Source: Ignavibacteria bacterium
GTDB taxonomy: Bacteria > Bacteroidota > Ignavibacteria > Kapaibacteriales > UBA4661
Direction of reading: 5' to 3'
Assembly (NCBI GenBank): GCA_014654705.1
Contig: JACVZY010000074.1
Coordinates: forward strand, 1-33,956
DNA: 33,956 nucleotides
Shown: piece by piece, positions 1 through 28,647 of the stretch
How the letters are laid out: the number at the start of each line of letters is the position of its first letter
How positions within the stretch are numbered: the first letter of the stretch is position 1
Notes under the pieces: generated by a model
What the model was told of the DNA's origin: nothing
Seen by the model: only the letters and a program-made list of their open reading frames with translations
Database searches by the model: none
Position numbers and translations under genes: made by a program

Positions 1-63
1 CCTTGTTAATCCCCCGTTCCCCCTTTGTCAAGGGGGCGAATGCGACAAAAGATATGGGTAATG
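1..63 (+). repeat. 63-bp perfect direct repeat, left copy
   Basis: Identical base for base to 729-791. It contains a CCCCCTT / AAGGGGG hairpin at 20-37. The window starts inside or at the edge of this copy, so it may extend further left. Confidence 0.9.
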
Positions 64-92
64 GATAGTTGATAAAGGGGGAACGGGGGATT
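8..92. repeat. 85-bp MITE-like unit with 24-bp terminal inverted repeats
   Basis: Bases 8-31 and 69-92 are inverted copies of each other at 23 of 24 positions. Both are built from a C-run/G-run core (AATCCCCCGTTCCCCC and its complement). The enclosed 37 bases are unique apart from their copies in the other repeats of the cassette. Confidence 0.75.
53..92 (+). repeat. 40-bp inverted repeat flanking the DUF559 gene, left arm
   Basis: Reads from TATGGGTAATGGATAGTTGA into the G-rich core. The inverted counterpart is at 592-631, with only a few mismatches in the G/A-rich part. Confidence 0.75.
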
Positions 93-203
93 TACAGTTT
101 GAAACGATACCTCATTCGCCAACTTGATAAAAGGGGAACGGGGGGATTTACAGTTTGAAACGATACCTCATTCGCACCCTTGATATAGGGGGAACGGGGG
201 ATT
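69..203 (+). repeat. Tandem repeat, about 55-bp unit, 2.4 copies
   Basis: Units at 69-123 and 124-179 share a core that runs from a G-rich AACGGGGGATT part into ACAGTTTGAAACGATACCTC. A third, partial unit lies at 180-203. The array ends 2 bases before the DUF559 stop codon. There are too few units, and no unique spacers, for a CRISPR. Confidence 0.85.
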
Positions 204-205
204 AT

Positions 206-571
206 CTAACGCCGACAAGCATTTTCGATACGCTCACAAACAGCCTCAAAACAATGCAATACCTCATTGTTTGTAAAGCGAATTATCTGCAACCCATATA
301 CCTGTAAGAATGCTGTTCGTTGAGCATCATATTCTTGTGCATCGTCTGTGTAATGAGAATCACCATCCACTTCGAGCACTATTTGTCTCTCTGAGCAGTA
401 AAAATTAACAATATAGTTTCCTAGAGGCTTTTGACGCAACCAGCGTACGTGATGCGCACGCAAAAACTCAAACCATAATTTTTTTTCTGAGGCAGTCATG
501 GTGTTGCGCATTTCTCTCGCCCGCTCTTTGAGAATCGGATTATATGGGATGTATGGAGTTTGTGTACTCAT
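206..571 (-). CDS. DUF559-family endonuclease-fold protein (Vsr-like)
   Basis: A 121-residue protein, normal length for stand-alone DUF559 proteins, which share the PD-(D/E)XK fold with very-short-patch-repair (Vsr) nucleases. The hallmarks are visible: an N-terminal helix with KERAREMRNTMTASEKKLW (13-33), a QKPLGNYIV strand (48-55), the FYC turn (57-59), the LEVDGDSHY core (66-74) with E67, D69 and H73, and GLQIIRFTNNEV (93-104). Residue 56 is Asn (codon AAT) where the family usually has Asp before FYC, so nuclease activity may be altered or lost. The gene fills the space between a tandem repeat (ending at 203) and an inverted repeat (starting at 592), which suggests it travels with them. 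No restriction or methylase partner is next to it. The biochemical role of single-domain DUF559 proteins is not known to me. Confidence 0.88.
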   Translation of the reverse strand: MSTQTPYIPYNPILKERAREMRNTMTASEKKLWFEFLRAHHVRWLRQKPLGNYIVNFYCSERQIVLEVDGDSHYTDDAQEYDAQRTAFLQVYGLQIIRFTNNEVLHCFEAVCERIENACRR

Positions 572-591
572 TTGTTTACTATCAAAGTGTA

Positions 592-631
592 AATCCCCCG
601 TTCCCCTTTTGTCAACTATCCATTACCCATA
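592..631 (-). repeat. 40-bp inverted repeat flanking the DUF559 gene, right arm
   Basis: Reverse complement of 53-92 with few differences. It begins 20 bases upstream of the DUF559 start codon, so any promoter for that gene must lie within or just beside it. Confidence 0.75.
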
Positions 632-728
632 AGTCTGAAAGGCTCATGAATACTTGCTTCCAGAAGCCCCCGTGACAAAGGGGGCGGCGAGCGCAGCGAG
701 CGGGGGATTTGCCGTAAGCCGCTTCAAA

Positions 729-791
729 CCTTGTTAATCCCCCGTTCCCCCTTTGTCAAGGGGGCGAATGCGACAAAAGATATGGGTAATG
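729..791 (+). repeat. 63-bp perfect direct repeat, right copy
   Basis: Second copy of bases 1-63, 728 bases away and on the far side of the DUF559 gene. After one mismatch (792) the match continues for four more bases. Confidence 0.9.
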
Positions 792-942
792 CATAGCCTT
801 ATCAAGGGGGCAAATGAGTCAAGCGGCTTTGCCAGTTTTTTAACGAAAGAACATAACCCAAACTAAAAAAGAATGTTGGAAAAGTAGTGAAAAAAATTCT
901 AGCAATGATGTTTTCAAAACCTGCTATCATGCTTTTTTACTA

Positions 943-4749: not shown

Positions 4750-7700
4750 TTAGTGTTTCACCACCACACGCGTTATCCAGCGCTTGCCGCGTTCGGTCGA
4801 AAGCTCAACACAATACACACCGGAGGCGAGTTTGCTGACATCGAATGTGCGCTCGTTACCACGAACTTCTTTCACGACAGCACCTTTCACATCGAGAAGG
4901 CGTACTTTGACAGGCTCATCCGAAAGTTCGGACAATCCTTCAATCTGCACAGTCTCGCTGGATGGGTTCGGGAAAATACGCACATTACCAAACATCATTT
5001 GGGCAGCAGCTTCATTAGCAAGCAACAAGTCTGAAAGTTGCTCTGTTGCTGATGGAGTATTCACATTGCCGATGGTATTAGCGGCACCGGAATTGCTTGT
5101 AACGACACCGCCGCTTTTCGGAGCGACCGTTGTTGTAAAGCCAGTCATAGGTGGCTGCGCTTGCGTAGTAACGCCACCGCAAGGAGCGCAGATTTTGCCC
5201 GGGGTGATGTTAATACCTGCGGTCGCACCGTTCGGATTTGTCAGAGAGCAGGGCGAAGGAATTCGGCAATCAAAGCCTGCCGGCGGTTCTTGGACAAAAC
5301 CAACAACAACCGAGTCATTATTCCCGACAATTCGTACCGGTTGCCCTTCCACCGTGAGAGTAGGCGTAGAACCAAAGTTTCTACCGTACACCACGACTTG
5401 TATGCCCACAGGTGTAGGAATGTTGGTCACCATGGTAATAAATGGCTGAGGTACGTTGTCAATGCGAATTGGAACCGATACCGTCTGACCGTTAGGGTTC
5501 GTGAGGCGAACCGTACCGGTACGCGGTGTGTTCAACGATGCAGGGATTTCTATGCCTACTTGCATCGGCGAGAGATAACGGGTCAGTGGTATTTGTACTC
5601 CATCCAAGGTAACGACCGTTGTCGGCAGCAAGCCCGTTCCATTCAGAGTTACCGTGAAGGGGCGAGCAGTTGCGGAGGTAACGATGGCTTGCGGTGTTGT
5701 AACGCGCAAATCCCGTATGGTCGGCGAATCAGCACCATTTGGCGCATTGCCGTTGGTGATACCGCCACGTTGGTCGAAGAGGAACTGCGGCAGAATCACA
5801 CCGTGCGATTGACCGTCAGGATTTGTAATCGTAACCGTAGCGGTCGAACCTGTCGGAATACTGAACGTATTCGGCACAAGTGCCAGTACAAGCGAATCAC
5901 CGGACGCAGCCAAGATGCCGAGTGGCTGCCCAAAGAGCGTTACACCTGCACCGGGCTGGAAGTTCCGCCCGCGAAGCGTAAGCTGCCAGTTACCCGGAAC
6001 GGGTGACGATTCAACGGTGCTGATAGATGGCGGCGGTCGGCGCTCGATAATCACCGGCACCGATGCGCTTTGGCGGTCGGTATTGGTGATGCGCAGGTTC
6101 GTCGTGCGAGGCTCGGCAGTCAGTGTGCCCGGAATCTCAATCGCTGCCTGCTGCGGCGATAGGATACGCGCCGTTACCGGAACGCCACCTACTGTAAACT
6201 GCGAAGTCGGGAAGAAACCACTACCAGTAACGGTGGTCGTAAAGGGGCGACCTGTCGCTGTCGTCACGATTGCCGGAGTAAGCGAGATTTGTGGTGGTGG
6301 TCCCGGTACGATTGCCAGCGTTACCGAAGCAAACTGTCCATCGGGATTGGTAAAGGTAATGCTACGAACACCCGGATAGCGCAGAGTTGCAGGAAGGGTG
6401 ATATTAGCTTGTGTAGGAACAATAGCCGTTGCTTGTACAGGGGTCGGCGGTGTGCTACCGTCGAAGACCGTAATTTTACCTTGCGGGCTAAGATTAAAGC
6501 CGGGAAGAGTAAGCGGAATATCTTCGCCGGACGACATAATCGGATTCGGCGTTACACGGATAAGCACTGGTGGCTGACCACGCAGATATTGCGTGCCAAG
6601 TCCACCAAAACTTGTCGGTACAGAAACGGTATTGGGTTGATTTGTAATGACCTGAATTTGATCATTCACCGGAACACCGCCTACGACTGCTTGAATCTGA
6701 CCATCACTATTGACAGTGAAACTTTGCACCGGAACGCCACCAATCAATACCTGAGTAGCACCCGTGAAGTTTGTGCCGGTCAGCGTTACGGGCGTACCGA
6801 AGGTAAACTGGGAAGGCGAAACACCCGTTACAACCGTTGTTTGCGGTGGTAATGCTTGGTAGCTAAAGCCATATGCCTGTACAGCGCCAAGCGGCGAGAT
6901 CACTTCAATCGTGCTTCCGTCGGTGCTGTCAAGTATCGCCTCCATATAGTTATCGCTCAGTACTCTAAAGGACTGGGCAGGAAATCTGCCAAAACGAACA
7001 TGGGTTGTACCCGTGAAGCCCGACCCACTGAGCAAGACTCTCGTACCACGCGGTCCGCCGGATGGTGTGAAACTCGATATCGTGAGAACTCTTGGCTGCG
7101 TCCCTACCGTCGGGAAATTCAGCCCGAGATTCTGTCCGTTCAAGCCCGTGATAGCTCCCGGATTACCGCTTGTGAGCGTTGCCGGCAGGAAGGAGATTTG
7201 AATATTATTCAACGGACCCGTAGGAACAGGATTAGCAACCCCGATAAAGGTTACAGTTACTTGTGTCGGTGATACTTTCGTTACAACGGGTGTGAGTCCC
7301 GGGGGAACACCCGTAATAGTGTAATTAACACCGTCGGTCATGACGGTACCGTCTGGAATACCGCCATTAAAGGTGTCGCCGGTAATACTAATCGGCAGTG
7401 TGCCGGTTACCGTACCATTCGCATTACCTGCAAGGCTAACACCGCTCGCGTAAATAGCTGTGCCGGTGATATAATTGATAGATAGTAGTTGACCATTCAG
7501 TCCCGTTACCGCAGCAGCATTACCGCCTTGAACACTTGCATTCAGGAAGGTAATTTGAACGTTGCCGACATTGTTCGCTGCCGTATGCGCAGCAGCTGCG
7601 CCGCTAAAGGAAATACGGGCTTCGGTTGGGGAAATTTTCGTCAGTACGATAGAAAGCCCTGACGGTACGTTCGCAACGGTATAGTGCGTAGCCGTTGTCA

Positions 7701-10700
7701 AGGTAGCATTCGTCGCAATCCCCACTGACCAAATATCGTTTGTGAGCGTAATGGTCTGCGTATCGGGAACAGTACCATTGTTCGTGCCGGCTTCATTAAA
7801 TATCAAACCGGAGTAGGCAGCTGTCGGCGGCGGCGAATTAACATAGTTGATTGACAAACTTTGCCCGTTCAGCCCCGTGATGGCACCCGCCACACCGCCT
7901 TGCAGCGCTGCGTTCAGGAACGTCGGCTGTACGTTTGCTACACTGTTTACAGCAGCGTGTGCGGCGGCATTACCTGTGAAGCTAATGGTAGCAATGTTGG
8001 CAGAGGTTTTTGTTATCACCATCGTTAAGCCCGCCGGTACGTTCACTACCGTAAAGTGCGTTACGGGAGTCAAGGCAGTGCCCACCGGAATACCTGCCGC
8101 CCATGTCTCTCCCGTCAGCGTTACCGTGCGCGTCTGGGTGATAGAACCGTCGTTCGCAGCCGCTTCGGCAAAGGTCAAACCGGAATACACCGCCGAACCC
8201 GTCGCTGGAACATCAATGAAGTTCACCGAAAGATTTTGACCGTTTAAGCCCGCCACAGCAGCAGCCGAACCACCCGTCACAGCAGCATTCAAGAATGTAA
8301 ATTGGGCATTGTTCACGCTATTAGCAAAAAGATGCGGTGCAGCATTGCCCGTGAGCAGTATCGTTATCTGTGTTGGTGAGGTTTTGAGCAAGACCGGAAC
8401 TAAGCCTGCGGGGATATTTGCCGTGTTATAGTGCACCCCGGCAAGAAGTGTACCACCGATAGCAACGCCTGCCGTCCATGTCTCGCCTGTGAGCGTAATG
8501 GTCCGCGAGTTCGCAATAGAGCCGTCATTCGCCACAGACTCATCAAATGTAATACCCGAATATGCTGCCGATGACGGGTCGTTAAAATTCACCGCCAAAT
8601 TTTGTCCGTTCAAGCCCGTTGTGCCAGCAGCATCAAGACTGTTGACTGCAGCGTTCGTGAACGTAAATTGCATATTGGCAATACTATTTGCCGCAGCATG
8701 ACTGGTAGCCGTACCCGTAAGCGAGATAGTAACAACCGTCGTTGATGTTTTTGTCAAGACAGCCGTCATGCCGGGTGGCACATTTGCTGCCGTATAGTGT
8801 ACACCGTCCGTCAAAGGAGTACCCACGGTAACTGCCGTTACCCACGTATCACCAGCAAGTGTGATAGTACGTGTGGTGCTTACAGTACCGTTATTGAGCG
8901 CCACCTCCGGGAAGGTTGTGCCGGAATACGTTGCCGAACCCGCTGAGGGGTTATTGAAATTCACATCAAGATTTTGTCCGTTCAAGCCCGCAAGGTTTCC
9001 ACTGGCTACCGCGCCCGGATTGAAGGTGATTTGAACGTTATTGACACTGTTTGCCGCAAGGTGATTCGTAGCATTTCCTGTAAAGCTGATAGTAGCAACG
9101 TTAGCAGAGGTTTTTGTGATGACCATTGTCAAGCCCGGAGGCACGTTTGCGACTGTAAAGTCAACGCCTGCCGTCAGTGGAGAACCGATAGCAACAGCCG
9201 TGCGCCATTGCTCACCAGCAAGAGTAATGGTGTTGGTCATCGTAACCGAACCGTTGTTTGCTCCGGCTTCGGTAAATACCGTGCCGCCGTAGGTGCCACC
9301 GGCACCCGGATTAACATAGTTAATCGCTAAATTCTGCCCGTTCAAGCCCGTCACACCGACAACCGAGCCGCTTTGAAAGGCTGCGTTCAAGAATGTAAAC
9401 TGAACGTTTGCCACGTCATCGGCAGTGGTGTGCAGCGTCGCCGGACCGGTGAAAGAAATCGTCCCTACTCCGGCGGAAGTCTTTGTTACTACCGCCGTTA
9501 AGCCTGCCGGTACGTTTGCAACCGTATAATGTACGCCGTTGGTAAGCGTTGCGCCCGTGGCAATAGCATTTGCCCATTGCTCTCCGGTTAACGTAATTGT
9601 TCGTGTTTGTGTGATGGTGCCATCATTGGCGCTTGATTCAGGGAACGTTGTACCGCTATACACCGCCGAACCTGCACCGCCGTAGTTGATGGTGAGGTTT
9701 TGCCCGTTCAAGCCCGTTACGCCTGCCACAGCGTTGCTTTGAAGCGCTGCGTTCAGGAAGGTAAACTGAACGTTGGCGACATCATCAATAGGAAGATTAG
9801 AAGTAGCATTACCCGTAAAGCTGATGGTGGCAACGTTACCGGATGTTTTGGTCAGCACTGCCGTCAAGCCCGCCGGAACGTTTGCGACGGTGTAGTGAAC
9901 TCCTGCGGTGAACGTTGCGCCCGTTGCCACACCGAGCGCCCACAACTCGTTTGTGAGAGTGATGGTGCGCGTCGTAGCAATAGAACCGTCGTTCGCAGCC
10001 GCTTCGGCAAAGGTTGTACCGGAATAAGCCGCAGTACCGGGATCGTTGAAGTTAATAGAATGATTCACCGCATTCAGACCACCCGCAATACTACCGCTCT
10101 CAATAGCAGCACCGACAAATGTGAACTGGACGTTCGCAACGCTGTTTGCTGCGGCGTGCGCAGTAGCAGTACCTGTGAAGCTGATAGTAGCAACGTTCGC
10201 AGAAGTTTTCGTCAGCACCGCCGTCAAGCCTGCCGGTACGTTTGCGACTGTATAGTGAACACCATTGGTGAAAGTAGCGCCTGTTACCACAGCAGACACC
10301 CACTGCTCTCCGGTAAGGGTAATCGTTCGTGTTTGCGACACAGCGCCATTGTTAGCAGCATCCTCCGGGAAGGTTGTGCCTGAGTAGGCAGCAGTACCGG
10401 GATTGAGGAAATTGACACTCAGAACATTACCATTCAAGCCCGTAACGCCTGCTGCAGGCAGACCTGTTTGAATAGCAGCATCCAGAAAATCAATCTGAAA
10501 AGTTGTATTCTGCGCGGCAGTGTGCGGTGCGCCCGTGCCGGTAAGCGCAGCAGTAGCAGTCGTGGCTCCTGTTTTGGTAACGACCAGCGTCAGTCCCGCA
10601 GGAATCGGACCACCGGTGACGTTGTAGTGCACACCGGCTGTCATGGTAGCACCGGTTGCGATGGCTTCGTTCCACACGGTATTGGTCACCGTGATAGTAC

Positions 10701-12447
10701 GCACTGTCGGCACAACACCATTGTTGGCAGCCTGTTCATCGAAAGTAAGACCGGAGTATGCGCCAACGGCAGGGTCGCGGAAATCGACAATCCAGTCCAG
10801 TGGATTGCCGGTCGTTGGATCGTTGTTCAAATTCTCTACGCCCACAGAATTGTTACCAAGCAATGCTGCATTCTGCCATGTAATGCGCATATTAGCCACA
10901 TCGTTGATATTCAAGTGATTTGTAGCCGTTCCGGTGAGAGTTACTGTTGCAATTTTGTTGGAAGTTTTCACAATGCTCACCGTCATACCAGGCGGTACGT
11001 TCGTAACGGTATAATGCGTACCGACGGTAAAATTTGCACCATTAGCAACGCTAGGTGTCCATTCTTCAAAGTCATCGGTAGTAGGATTGGCAGGACCAAG
11101 TTGGATTGTCAATGCCGTTGTCGAGGTACCATTATTGGCAATCGCTTCCACAAACGTCCGTGAGGCAGCAAAGGCAGAAGACGCATAGAAGAAACGTGCG
11201 AGGCGATTACGATTCGGTGTGGGATTGTTAAACGCTGTGAACTGACCGCCGACGACAAGTTTTCTGTCCGCTTGCACCATAACTTTGATAACACCGCCGG
11301 TAAATCCTGAACCGGGATTAAAGCGAAAGTCATTTCCGCCGGCAGGCAGAATACGGACAATGTTATTTCGTGACGTGCCATTATAGGTAGAAAAGCCACC
11401 GCCAACAATAATGTTTTGTGTGGTTGGCTCCATGGCGATTGTATTGACGGTATTATTAAAACCCGTTCCCGGATTAAACGTTCCGTCCAATGCTCCAGTC
11501 GCCGATAAACGAGCAATACGGTTGCGTCCTGTACCGTTAAAACTGGTGAAGTCACCACCAATCATGATTCTGTTCATTGCATCTAAGGCAATCGTAAAAA
11601 TCATATTATTCGAGCCGGTACCGATAGCAAACGTTCCGTCATTGGTTCCTGTACTGGTCAGACGAACAATACCCGAACGGGCAGTACCATTAAAAAGCGT
11701 AAAATTACCACCTATCAAAATTCTATTGGAGCCATCAATCACCACTGCCTGTGCGCCAAGCGACGTACCCGTCAGACCTGTACCTAAGTTTGTGTTAAAT
11801 GTAGCATCTAAAGCACCTGTGCTTGTGAAACGAATAACCCGACTGGTAGGAGTAGTAAAGTCTCCCACAGCCACGACGTTATCAGAAGCATCCACTGCAA
11901 TTGCATTCACCGCACCACCAAGCGCGTTATTTTGCACAAAAGTACCGTCAAGCGTACCGTCAGCATTTAAGCGGGCTACACGGCGGCTATTTGCCACGTT
12001 GAAAGCGCCACCAATCATGAGTTTGCCGCCGGAAGCCAGAGCCACCGAATTGACAACGTTGGTGAATCCAACCGGTAGAGAACTAAATGTGCCGTCGAGC
12101 GTACCGTCTGCGTTCAAACGCACGACACGATTCGCCGGCGCGCCACGATAATTCTCAAAGTCGCCGACAACAATAAGCTGACCACTACCAAGTTGTAAAA
12201 TATCGCGAACCTCGCCGTCAAAACCAAGATTTACACCGGTTTCAAAGGTAAAAGTTGGCGGATTCTCCAGCACCTGCGCCGTGGACGGCATCACTGCTCC
12301 CAAAAATGAGAACAGCAGCACAAGCTGGACAAGGAGGGCGTTTCGGCGTACCGCAATCGGTAACGCAATCGGTAACGAGCGCCCACGACTGCGCGGCATA
12401 TGGACTATGCCGGACAGGAATGCGAAAAGAGAGGTGGGTTGAGTCAT
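4750..12447 (-). CDS. Giant T9SS-secreted surface protein: delta-60 propeller, 11 repeats, 7 IPT/TIG domains
   Basis: About 2,565 residues from the ATG at 12447; an in-frame extension to 12567 is unlikely to be used. A long basic N-region precedes the hydrophobic ALLVQLVLLFSFLGAVMP and cleavage near TAQ. Order: (a) seven delta-60 units of about 50 aa, with signatures like RLNADGTLDGTF and GGDFTSFNG (about 11200-12260), enough for a seven-bladed propeller; (b) eleven repeats of about 120 aa (about 7095-11180) with YSGTTF, ITLTGE.W, HYTVANVPAGLTAVLTKTS, ATISFTG and GLNGQNL; (c) about seven IPT/TIG Ig-like domains (about 5220-7090) with GxxFxxxxxVxxGGxP and TNPDGQ; (d) a type A sorting tail, VRIFPNPSSETVQIEGL to the end (4750-4990). 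Families with this make-up are surface adhesins or stalk proteins; the ligand is unknown. Its own terminator and probable promoter make it monocistronic. Confidence 0.88.
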   Translation of the reverse strand: MTQPTSLFAFLSGIVHMPRSRGRSLPIALPIAVRRNALLVQLVLLFSFLGAVMPSTAQVLENPPTFTFETGVNLGFDGEVRDILQLGSGQLIVVGDFENYRGAPANRVVRLNADGTLDGTFSSLPVGFTNVVNSVALASGGKLMIGGAFNVANSRRVARLNADGTLDGTFVQNNALGGAVNAIAVDASDNVVAVGDFTTPTSRVIRFTSTGALDATFNTNLGTGLTGTSLGAQAVVIDGSNRILIGGNFTLFNGTARSGIVRLTSTGTNDGTFAIGTGSNNMIFTIALDAMNRIMIGGDFTSFNGTGRNRIARLSATGALDGTFNPGTGFNNTVNTIAMEPTTQNIIVGGGFSTYNGTSRNNIVRILPAGGNDFRFNPGSGFTGGVIKVMVQADRKLVVGGQFTAFNNPTPNRNRLARFFYASSAFAASRTFVEAIANNGTSTTALTIQLGPANPTTDDFEEWTPSVANGANFTVGTHYTVTNVPPGMTVSIVKTSNKIATVTLTGTATNHLNINDVANMRITWQNAALLGNNSVGVENLNNDPTTGNPLDWIVDFRDPAVGAYSGLTFDEQAANNGVVPTVRTITVTNTVWNEAIATGATMTAGVHYNVTGGPIPAGLTLVVTKTGATTATAALTGTGAPHTAAQNTTFQIDFLDAAIQTGLPAAGVTGLNGNVLSVNFLNPGTAAYSGTTFPEDAANNGAVSQTRTITLTGEQWVSAVVTGATFTNGVHYTVANVPAGLTAVLTKTSANVATISFTGTATAHAAANSVANVQFTFVGAAIESGSIAGGLNAVNHSINFNDPGTAAYSGTTFAEAAANDGSIATTRTITLTNELWALGVATGATFTAGVHYTVANVPAGLTAVLTKTSGNVATISFTGNATSNLPIDDVANVQFTFLNAALQSNAVAGVTGLNGQNLTINYGGAGSAVYSGTTFPESSANDGTITQTRTITLTGEQWANAIATGATLTNGVHYTVANVPAGLTAVVTKTSAGVGTISFTGPATLHTTADDVANVQFTFLNAAFQSGSVVGVTGLNGQNLAINYVNPGAGGTYGGTVFTEAGANNGSVTMTNTITLAGEQWRTAVAIGSPLTAGVDFTVANVPPGLTMVITKTSANVATISFTGNATNHLAANSVNNVQITFNPGAVASGNLAGLNGQNLDVNFNNPSAGSATYSGTTFPEVALNNGTVSTTRTITLAGDTWVTAVTVGTPLTDGVHYTAANVPPGMTAVLTKTSTTVVTISLTGTATSHAAANSIANMQFTFTNAAVNSLDAAGTTGLNGQNLAVNFNDPSSAAYSGITFDESVANDGSIANSRTITLTGETWTAGVAIGGTLLAGVHYNTANIPAGLVPVLLKTSPTQITILLTGNAAPHLFANSVNNAQFTFLNAAVTGGSAAAVAGLNGQNLSVNFIDVPATGSAVYSGLTFAEAAANDGSITQTRTVTLTGETWAAGIPVGTALTPVTHFTVVNVPAGLTMVITKTSANIATISFTGNAAAHAAVNSVANVQPTFLNAALQGGVAGAITGLNGQSLSINYVNSPPPTAAYSGLIFNEAGTNNGTVPDTQTITLTNDIWSVGIATNATLTTATHYTVANVPSGLSIVLTKISPTEARISFSGAAAAHTAANNVGNVQITFLNASVQGGNAAAVTGLNGQLLSINYITGTAIYASGVSLAGNANGTVTGTLPISITGDTFNGGIPDGTVMTDGVNYTITGVPPGLTPVVTKVSPTQVTVTFIGVANPVPTGPLNNIQISFLPATLTSGNPGAITGLNGQNLGLNFPTVGTQPRVLTISSFTPSGGPRGTRVLLSGSGFTGTTHVRFGRFPAQSFRVLSDNYMEAILDSTDGSTIEVISPLGAVQAYGFSYQALPPQTTVVTGVSPSQFTFGTPVTLTGTNFTGATQVLIGGVPVQSFTVNSDGQIQAVVGGVPVNDQIQVITNQPNTVSVPTSFGGLGTQYLRGQPPVLIRVTPNPIMSSGEDIPLTLPGFNLSPQGKITVFDGSTPPTPVQATAIVPTQANITLPATLRYPGVRSITFTNPDGQFASVTLAIVPGPPPQISLTPAIVTTATGRPFTTTVTGSGFFPTSQFTVGGVPVTARILSPQQAAIEIPGTLTAEPRTTNLRITNTDRQSASVPVIIERRPPPSISTVESSPVPGNWQLTLRGRNFQPGAGVTLFGQPLGILAASGDSLVLALVPNTFSIPTGSTATVTITNPDGQSHGVILPQFLFDQRGGITNGNAPNGADSPTIRDLRVTTPQAIVTSATARPFTVTLNGTGLLPTTVVTLDGVQIPLTRYLSPMQVGIEIPASLNTPRTGTVRLTNPNGQTVSVPIRIDNVPQPFITMVTNIPTPVGIQVVVYGRNFGSTPTLTVEGQPVRIVGNNDSVVVGFVQEPPAGFDCRIPSPCSLTNPNGATAGINITPGKICAPCGGVTTQAQPPMTGFTTTVAPKSGGVVTSNSGAANTIGNVNTPSATEQLSDLLLANEAAAQMMFGNVRIFPNPSSETVQIEGLSELSDEPVKVRLLDVKGAVVKEVRGNERTFDVSKLASGVYCVELSTERGKRWITRVVVKH
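7095..11180 (-). repeat. Intragenic repeat array, 11 units of about 365 bp
   Basis: DNA-level repeats within giant protein 1. A marker close to CTGTCCGTTCAAGCCCG recurs near 7131, 8600, 8971, 9331 and 9699, with diverged versions near 7490, 7860, 8233 and 10430, giving a period of about 360-370 bases. The outer units (first and last) are the most diverged and the middle ones the most alike, as expected from unequal crossing-over in the centre of an array. Confidence 0.85.
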
Positions 12448-12648
12448 AGTAAACACTGAAAAATATATGGAAAGAATGAAGTATGTCGTATGAACGTCAA
12501 GCGAATAGCGAAAGCAACAGTGGAACGCGGTGAGAAGCAACAAACGTGCCACTGATATCAGCAGCACTCAACTATAAAAGCATTGTATGGTGTATAAGCG
12601 TTTACGGCTATATGAAGCATTACATTACAGCCTTGTACTATACTGATA

Positions 12649-16010: not shown

Positions 16011-16056
16011 AACGGAATTGTTCTTGGTTTGAGATGAAAGAAAAGGAGCGGTTTTC

Positions 16057-16149
16057 GTAGCACAGACATTCCTGTCTGTGTCCCAAATACGCGAAGCGTA
16101 TAATCTTCAAATACCGTGCTGTGAACACAGACAGGAATGCCTGTGCTAC
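16057..16149. repeat. REPIN-like inverted hairpin doublet, copy 2
   Basis: Arms 16057-16080 and 16126-16149 are inverted copies with one mismatch in 24, separated by 45 bases. The left arm is GTAG followed by CACAGACA, loop TTCC, TGTCTGTG. The element lies in the probable transcribed leader of the second E1 gene, 47 bases from its start. Confidence 0.85.
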
Positions 16150-16216
16150 AAAGAAAGAAATTATACTGCGTACTATGGGTTGTTTCGGGCTTTTATCGAA
16201 TAAGAAATATACACCG

Positions 16217-26593: not shown

Positions 26594-26737
26594 GGTAAAA
26601 TTCTGTGCAGTATGAAGATAATGCGTGCAGAACTCATAAATGGAGAGTGTAGAACCAGCAAAAAAAGCAAAATTATACCCGCACCCTGCTCTATTTTTGC
26701 TGAGAACTGCTCGAACAACAAGTCGTCCATCTTCTCC

Positions 26738-26890
26738 GCAGCACAGACATTTTTGTCTGTACCCTTATTTTTGTCTGTACTCTTACGCACCTTCTTCGGG
26801 GCGTCGCAAGGATGGACGACCACATCACTGTTTTTGTCAAACCGATGCGCTATTGCACATTAAGAACACAGACAGAAATGTCTGTGCTAC
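26738..26890. repeat. REPIN-like inverted hairpin doublet, copy 3 (expanded)
   Basis: Outer arms at 26738-26760 (foot GCAG, hairpin loop TTTT) and 26867-26890 (ending GTGCTAC). The spacer is about 106 bases, longer than in the other copies. It contains a partial duplicate of the hairpin half (ATTTTTGTCTGTAC at 26768-26781) and a separate inverted pair, GTCGTCCAT (26723-26731) with ATGGACGAC. The element begins 23 bases after the proS stop. Confidence 0.75.
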
Positions 26891-26912
26891 GAAAGAAGTT
26901 TATCGCATTTTT

Positions 26913-28472: not shown

Positions 28473-28517
28473 ACGTTACCACTTCTTCAATCATAGCACA
28501 GAACTTTGTTCTTGACC

Positions 28518-28578
28518 GTAGCACAGACATTCTTGTCTGTGAGGCTTCAAGTGACACAGACAAGAATGTCTGTGCTAC
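28518..28578. repeat. REPIN-like inverted hairpin doublet, copy 4 (most compact)
   Basis: Arms 28518-28541 and 28555-28578 are perfectly inverted over 24 bases, with a spacer of only 13 bases. The left arm is GTAG followed by CACAGACA, loop TTCT, TGTCTGTG. The right flank (ACCGAAGCC) is shared with copy 1. It lies 69 bases after the M48 protease stop and upstream of proS. Confidence 0.9.
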
Positions 28579-28647
28579 CGAAGCCGGAAGGTTTTGATAC
28601 GTTATTTTTGGGCAATCCTTTTTGCTGAAGTATGCGTCGCAAATATA

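Follow-up and report, generated by a model that had tools for sequence, protein, structure and literature searches.

A DUF559 nuclease gene among intrastrand-triplex repeats: probably a decayed copy of a pan-bacterial two-part system

The subject of this report is a small gene of the DUF559 family and the repeats in which it is embedded. It lies in a stretch of 33,956 nucleotides from an Ignavibacteria bacterium (JACVZY010000074.1), here called the window, which makes up the whole of contig C74; the genome comprises 118 contigs and 5.72 Mb. The window starts at the contig end, and the left side of the repeat cluster is therefore cut off. The gene (206-571, minus strand) encodes 121 amino acids and, according to Pfam, alignments and Foldseek, a Vsr/EDxHD-like PD-(D/E)XK nuclease with Asn at position 56. 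With high confidence, DUF559 genes and repeats of this kind form a recurrent, specific and polar partnership that tracks the presence of the gene and has moved in evolution. The window probably contains a decayed copy of a pan-bacterial two-part system, made up of a solo DUF559 nuclease gene and its cognate intrastrand-triplex (PIT/BoxC/TM) repeats.

Read from the strand that has the C/T arm first, the repeats of the window share a common plan, CCCCCTT-GACA-AAGGGGG-AAC-GGGGGATT. It is a hairpin, then a second G-rich tract mirroring the first: C/T arm, loop, G/A arm, spacer and mirror G/A tract. Two copies are complete, CCCCCTTGACAAAGGGGG-AAC-GGGGGATT at 8-36 and another at 736-764 (both minus strand; genome core search, folding and reading of the sequence), the latter inside a miniature inverted-repeat transposable element (MITE, see below). 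The MITE also holds a triplex repeat with a longer spacer (667-708, plus strand; folding, reading). The copies adjoining the gene are partial or degenerate. On the stop side, a tandem array with a 56-bp period and 2.4 copies (69-203, strand unassigned; tandem-repeat analysis) contains a partial repeat consisting of G/A arm and mirror tract without the C/T arm (69-92) and a degenerate one (113-148), both on the plus strand and recognised by self-comparison and reading. It ends with a further degenerate copy (169-203, plus strand; self-comparison, folding), which directs its mirror tract towards the gene. Upstream of the gene lies a partial repeat, again with its mirror tract towards the gene (592-615, minus strand; core search, reading). 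By eye, both copies nearest to the gene turn their G tract to it.

A sequence-only reading of the window had stressed how tightly all this is packed, and every measurement could be reproduced: 2 bases separate the tandem array from the stop codon, the inverted copy beginning at 592 stands 20 bases from the start codon, and 1-63 is identical to 729-791 (99% identity over 1-68 and 729-796). A 50-nt inverted repeat (53-102/582-631) has 47 of 50 matches. That reading had also seen the repeats as hairpins. This holds for the two complete copies, each of which forms a DNA hairpin of -7.1 kcal/mol (z -2.45), and not for 169-203, 592-615 and 667-708, which fold no better than shuffled sequence. To the eye, inverted dispersed palindromic repeats flank the gene; the copies next to it being degenerate, an automatic test picked hairpins at distances of 178 and 218 bp instead. 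An Rfam search of 1-2300 gave no match at the gathering score, and no GTAG-tagged repetitive extragenic palindrome (REP) was seen among the window elements as read. Judged by sequence, the layout is that of the intrastrand-triplex repeats PIT, BoxC and TM: the hairpin is followed, after a short spacer, by a mirror purine tract as third strand, the formation of the triplex itself being putative.

The protein has DUF559 (99.5 bits) as its sole Pfam match above the cut-off. In a profile search it finds 3hrl with E 1.4e-34 and the homing endonuclease I-Bth0305I (3r3p) with E 2.5e-5. Its AlphaFold model (pLDDT 90.9) leads Foldseek to the same two structures at E <= 0.001 (3r3p 6.1e-4), the match to Vsr (1cw0) being weak at 0.075. 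Besides the fold, the invariant residues E29, E67, D69, H73 and D82 mark it as EDxHD/Vsr-like; the catalytic roles of these conserved residues are putative. Asp56 is present in both other copies of the genome, in 25 of 25 relatives of one alignment (A3) and in 11 of 11 of another (A1). Since Asn replaces this otherwise invariant Asp, the copy in the window may be inactive. As for the family, YcjD of Escherichia coli has been described as a putative PD-(D/E)XK nuclease related to Vsr (PMC1189080), and a DUF559 gene in an intein survey of Thermosynechococcus was assigned to the EDxHD family (PMC9403480).

The sequence-only reading had likened the locus to the pairing of REPs with their REP-associated tyrosine transposases (RAYTs), a Vsr-like protein taking the place of the transposase. 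Adjacency, inverted arrangement, repeat number and co-divergence strongly support such a pairing, and it is not local. The genome has three DUF559 genes, the other two proteins being 83% and 73% identical to the window copy, and all three genes lie within repeat clusters. In the 5.72 Mb there are 30 occurrences of a 15-base repeat core and none of its reversed control, so the repeat is not a product of chance; 16 of the 30 occurrences are at most 1 kb from one of the three genes.

In the order, 59 of 123 genomes have some DUF559 match, and in 47 there is a strong match (E <= 1e-18). Of the 99 strong matches, 63, picked mostly for flank length, were examined with about 6 kb on each side where contigs allowed. 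The two flanks matched each other with at least 30 bits at 48 of 62 testable loci, compared with 10 of 650 other positions in the same stretches. The figures were 41 of 46 for solo genes and 7 of 16 for genes within longer frames. For a general hairpin pattern, the median count is 26 in the 47 strong-gene genomes and 2 in the other 76 (p 1.2e-10); at least 20 copies occur in 30 of the former and 6 of the latter. The reversed pattern does not distinguish the groups (p 0.22). Tested by genus, hairpin number still follows the gene (p 1.6e-4). These counts are rough, because a generic pattern misses the repeat types peculiar to single genomes.

Beyond the order, 84,980 species genomes were scanned, and the best 80 of at least 567 relatives were examined. 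They come from cyanobacteria, Clostridia, several classes of proteobacteria, Chloroflexi, Nitrospirae, candidate phyla, Bacteroidetes and others; phage records yielded 3 matches. Four loci with flanks below 100 bp were left out of the flank test and of the count of hairpins on both sides. The flanks match with at least 30 bits at 51 of the 76 testable loci and at 13 of 692 control positions, with 14 of 18 in cyanobacteria and 21 of 35 in Clostridia and other Bacillota. The enrichment of DUF559 genes beside repeats, which the sequence-only reading had proposed to test, was seen both in the order and across many phyla.

Alphaproteobacteria provide the second taxonomic sample in which repeat number tracks the presence of the gene. 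Here 51 of 142 genomes have a DUF559 match, 37 of them a strong one, and the 37 contain 967 of the 1003 matches to a triplex-type pattern (p 9e-19), overlapping readings of a single repeat being counted separately. The median is 11 with a strong gene and 0 without, where the maximum is 7; restriction to genomes of at least 3.3 Mb (24 vs 27) leaves p 4e-8. The flanks match at 24 of the best 30 loci, one per genome, which were too short for control positions. A loose repeat pattern, applied to 38 named genomes, showed no consistent excess over its reversed control and is uninformative.

The arrangement has a grammar. It was read from 152 loci of the three samples, without the 16 loci whose open frames exceed 260 amino acids, which the analysis of co-divergence left aside as well; L162, its flank being too short, was omitted from the counts of both-sided hairpins, mirror tracts, co-divergence and other open reading frames. 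Hairpins with the C/T arm first lie within 260 bp on both sides of the gene at 92 of the 152 loci and on at least one side at 138. Control positions, which the alphaproteobacterial loci do not have, show them on both sides in 1 of 1762 cases and on one side in 53. Hairpins of opposite polarity on both sides were never seen (0 of 152). When the control is centred on genes, both sides are occupied for 77 of 122 DUF559 genes and for 16 of 909 other open reading frames of at least 100 amino acids in the same stretches. A mirror tract (at most 1 mismatch, T allowed for A) accompanies 225 of the 240 nearest hairpins, and 43 of 240 with shuffled flanks. The commonest spacer between hairpin and tract is 3 nt (90 of 225). 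The tract points towards the gene in 161 cases and away from it in 41, 23 being tied; where both nearest hairpins could be oriented, the tracts face the gene on both sides in 48 of 76. Hairpins more than 1.5 kb from the gene have the mirror tract as well (71 of 84), and it is therefore a property of the repeats themselves.

The pairing is also specific. At 41 loci with a detected hairpin, which make 760 between-genus pairs, the similarity of the proteins correlates with that of the hairpins (r 0.37). When the repeats are shuffled freely, p is 0.0005; when they are exchanged only between paralogues of one genome, so that phylogeny is held constant, it is 0.006. One protein type, for example, is common to the genomes G071 and G057, which belong to different genera, and comes with an identical hairpin in both; other paralogues of G057 have other hairpins.

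DUF559 units also reside inside genes. At 16 of the 63 loci of the order the domain is part of a longer open frame, mostly, by eye, of a DNA methyltransferase; plasmid homologues served for comparison with the interrupted genes. L129 encodes a type ISP enzyme that is interrupted, in frame, by a DUF559 domain with inverted repeats (GCTCCCCTCCTTTCGAAGGAGGGG... / ...CCCCTCCTTCGAAAGGAGGGGAGC) at its ends; the homologue from Acinetobacter (66% identity) is uninterrupted there. The corresponding position of L145, which comes from another family of the order, is occupied by a different DUF559 unit. The HsdM genes L128 and L174 carry a unit that is missing from the Crinalium homologue (48%); when an uninterrupted HsdM gene was sought in the same family, the two interrupted genes were the only close matches. 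The flanking repeats score 62 bits in L129, where they are clear, and a weak 31.5 bits in L128; those of L145 (27.6 bits) and L174 (23.8 bits) fall below threshold. In L140 (G094:C46:4764-11627) the domain is found in an intein-like region (PF14890, 25.5 bits, below the cut-off of 35.8) that ends at a DNA methylase fragment, and it is possibly the homing endonuclease of an intein. In-frame units recur in methyltransferases of restriction-modification systems (L129, L145, L128, L174, L163-L166), twice at the same position in different families, which may indicate a hot spot of insertion.

In E. coli the DUF559 gene is ycjD. It adjoins sapF, being located between sapF and fabI (PMC12817139), and is adjoined by BoxC-type repeats. 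Copies such as CCCCTCGCCCC-TTT-GGGGAGAGGG-TTA-GGGTGAGGGG have 37 nt and a TTA loop. Because length, loop and plan agree, the repeat can be assigned to the TM/PIT type, the comparison being with the published description and not with a printed sequence; Holder et al. (2015; PMC4666352) reported a G/C-rich motif in more than 260 genomes and, for E. coli MG1655, 23 copies of a 37-nt motif. The region beside ycjD finds 27 and 53 matches in two E. coli chromosomes that are filed as plasmids. Among 15 + 15 loci listed for them (30 of the 80 matches), only two could be aligned as one and the same site, the ycjD locus and another stretch, which suggests that the repeat sites differ between these two chromosomes. 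Empty sites in close strains, which the sequence-only reading had proposed to look for, are found here, as they were not in the HsdM family: at recA-recX, gntP-fimH and yihS-yihR, some complete E. coli genomes have the repeat and others do not. At ypfG-tkt, one strain (L294) has a BoxC-type repeat where K-12 (L326, L327) has what we take to be a REP-like sequence, so that one gap has harboured two repeat classes. At all four sites the repeat replaces a short local segment, with no evident duplication. At zntA-yhhQ most of the 16 E. coli records listed have the repeat. In 60 of 5105 matching records, the median number of other repeat places is 3 with ycjD (39 records) and 1 without (21 records; p 3.5e-6), an association confounded by phylogroup. 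The PF04480 profile found no match in the E. coli control genome, although MG1655 records carry ycjD annotated as DUF559. In the literature searched, which covered few subscription papers, neither a functional study of YcjD nor any link between gene and repeat was found under DUF559, ycjD, COG2852 or triplex/BoxC repeats.

A number of observations weigh against such a two-part system. The flank test failed at 14 of 62 loci in the order, with a particularly poor yield for genes in longer frames, and at 25 of 76 across many phyla. Within genera of the order, a permutation test was not significant (p 0.10). At least 20 hairpins were counted without any DUF559 match in G101 (22), G108 (60) and G112 (58) and with weak matches only in G040 (30), G048 (30) and G087 (81); conversely, 17 of the 47 strong-gene genomes have fewer than 20, and 6 of the 37 strong-gene Alphaproteobacteria lack any pattern match. 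The E. coli sites are segment replacements, not clean insertions, and could also reflect loss. The presence of ycjD follows phylogroup (PMC12817139), and the window's own copy carries Asn56. There are, then, exceptions in both directions; still, the repeats did not turn out to be equally common without the gene, nor the genes to be usually without repeats.

It is rather likely, we infer, that the DUF559 nuclease drives the spread of the repeats. The core unit is repeat-gene-repeat, with the repeat copies inverted and their mirror G/A tracts towards the gene. The nuclease would recognise the hairpin or triplex of its own repeat on single-stranded or negatively supercoiled DNA and cut at the repeat structure or at the target. 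Repair of the break would copy the repeat, or the entire repeat-gene-repeat unit, to a new place, at the cost of a few target bases. Repeats that stand alone or in pairs would be non-autonomous, the counterparts of REPs in RAYT systems. That target bases are missing at the E. coli sites speaks for repair rather than cut-and-paste, though four sites are few and the change there may have run in either direction. Chances are about even that DUF559 proteins in general are the dedicated mobility nucleases of intrastrand-triplex repeats, forming a pan-bacterial selfish class that includes YcjD/BoxC of E. coli. The same even odds apply to its mode of action, a structure-specific cut by a Vsr/homing-type nuclease, completed by host repair without any DDE, HUH, serine or tyrosine recombinase.

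The roles might also be reversed. The repeats might spread by other means and serve as a landing pad, the DUF559 gene being a homing-type parasite that inserts between two inverted repeats. E. coli indeed has gene-less repeat pairs in the same orientation, the protein resembles EDxHD homing endonucleases and has the one copy in an intein-like domain, with its sub-threshold score, and a Tn5-type MITE likewise lands in these repeats. Yet Alphaproteobacteria without a strong gene are nearly free of repeats (36 of 1003 matches), and the unit of L129 brings its own repeats to a place where the uninterrupted homologue has no insertion. We consider this parasitic life style unlikely.

Even less can be said for DUF559 as an enzyme of defence or of Vsr-type mismatch repair, with the repeats as unrelated neighbours or transcription terminators. 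The DNA damage response of Caulobacter lacking the cytosine methyltransferase depends on the DUF559 protein VsrA (PMC12907096), and DUF559 units do occur in restriction-modification genes. Yet the repeats also occur at a distance from the gene, depend on it, have a polarity and co-diverge with the protein, all of which speaks against the idea, as does the reported lack of terminator activity of PIT elements (PMC4666352); it is very improbable.

A slightly poorer prospect still is that DDE transposases of the Tn5/IS4 type mobilise the repeats, with DUF559 as a passenger. In favour of this, the MITE of the window (616-796, 181 bp, strand unassigned), identified by comparison of its Tn5-type inverted ends CTATCCATTACCCAT, sits within the triplex repeat that begins at 592 and, as mentioned, contains two triplex repeats. 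The right end of another copy, truncated where the contig stops, occupies 1-68 (strand unassigned; sequence comparison) and gives rise to the 63-bp direct repeat. The same end is found once more beside a frame in which Pfam recognises a Tn5 dimerisation domain (PF02281 at 33 bits; cut-off 26.7), and the copy at C108:9740-9920 has an exact 10-bp flanking duplication; elsewhere the duplication is decayed or not discernible. Elements of the Tn5/IS4 type duplicate 9-12 bp of their target. In view of the end beside the Tn5 domain and of the 10-bp duplication, the 63-bp direct repeat is better explained as two ends of this MITE, and not, as the sequence-only reading had it, as the edge of the DUF559 arrangement. 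The MITE-like unit with 24-bp terminal inverted repeats does exist, as a Tn5-type DDE element and not as a DUF559-repeat unit. This assignment concerns unit 616-796, whose inverted ends recur at the transposase-associated copy; another unit, L067, has a different inverted end, CTAGTCTATGCACA. Against such a role of DDE transposases, the repeat copies L069, L070 and L072-L074 have no such ends, the four E. coli sites show neither such ends nor an evident duplication, and transposition of this kind would leave the cross-phylum pairing of gene and repeat unexplained.

The MITE is curious in its own right. Within the stretches read, its end CTATCCATTACCCAT matches at eight further or overlapping places, one weak match being left out, and at each of them at least one flank can be read, by eye, as a triplex repeat of some type. 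The element (616-796; L065:9740-9920; L066:1948-2125; L071; L076) thus seems to land in triplex-type hairpins of any sequence type, as though it targeted the hairpin; this preference is biased, because the stretches were mostly fetched for holding the repeat. In L067 (3600-3840), too, the repeat pair with the end CTAGTCTATGCACA lies between parts of a triplex-type hairpin.

A RAYT or other Y1 (HUH) transposase as the driver, with DUF559 as bystander, is the least probable of all and was rejected: despite the RAYT/REP-like architecture and Y1 matches in 68 of the order's 123 genomes, the median hairpin number is 24 with strong DUF559 only (24 genomes), 2 with strong Y1 only (18), 1.5 with neither (58) and 26 with both (23; strong Y1 meaning E <= 1e-18, plus G071 at 8e-18), Y1 alone has no effect on hairpin number (p 0.37; DUF559 alone p 6e-6), and the source genome has a single partial Y1 match (39 bits, profile positions 43-103, within a 997-aa frame).

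Other repeats were considered as partners and discarded. For Neisseria dRS3, the gonococcal gene was seen by eye to lie between repeats of the CTCTCTCCC...GGGAGAGAG type instead; in L288 (3880-4900, Neisseria gonorrhoeae) the gonococcal relative, of the PDB 3hrl family, stands among repeated units of this type in a longer duplicated module. CGTC REPs, a CGTC-tagged hairpin ending in CCA, gave with one pattern a single match in 30 alphaproteobacterial loci, 1.4 kb from the gene; they are likewise without a known transposase (PMC3733652). The window harbours a second dispersed palindromic repeat around CACAGACATTCTTGTCTGTG, unrelated in sequence to those of DUF559, with inverted pairs at 2066-2170, 16049-16157, 26730-26898 and 28510-28609. 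A frame of 2605 amino acids (4750-12567, minus strand) extends over a DNA repeat of about seven diverged copies spaced by 360-375 bp. It ends like what we take to be a secreted surface protein, with a C-terminal sorting signal.

Should the nuclease prove to be the driver, DUF559, a large family of "unknown function", would acquire one, with ycjD of E. coli K-12 as a candidate, and a homing-type nuclease could fill the place of the HUH transposase in REP systems. Triplex repeats have been linked to genome instability, and those of E. coli, cyanobacteria, Neisseria and many others had, according to PMC4666352, no mobility gene nearby; DUF559 is a candidate for the enzyme.

The closest organisational analogy remains the RAYT/REP systems, or REPtrons. 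Both have a small gene for a single-domain nuclease, inverted flanking palindromic repeats that are dispersed in the genome, and protein types paired with repeat types. They differ in the enzyme, which here is PD-(D/E)XK/EDxHD-like and not an HUH tyrosine transposase with a Y1_Tnp domain, in the mirror G/A tract of the DUF559 repeats and in the occurrence of DUF559 units inside genes. With the EDxHD homing endonucleases (I-Bth0305I, 3r3p) and with NGO0050 (3hrl) the proteins share sequence and predicted fold, and with the former also the insertion into genes, in one case inside an intein-like domain; this insertion is seen here as presence or absence in homologous genes, cutting and homing being putative. 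Unlike homing endonucleases, most DUF559 copies are free-standing and flanked by their own dispersed repeats. The repeats share with PIT, BoxC and TM (PMC4666352) the order of C/T arm, loop, G/A arm, mostly short spacer and mirror G/A tract, and the E. coli copies agree with the length and the type A loop reported for TMECO, their TTA being the second loop. Many copies here differ in having a longer spacer, often able, by eye, to form a second hairpin. E. coli YcjD, finally, combines both likenesses: a DUF559 protein of the PD-(D/E)XK type (PMC1189080) with BoxC-type repeats alongside.
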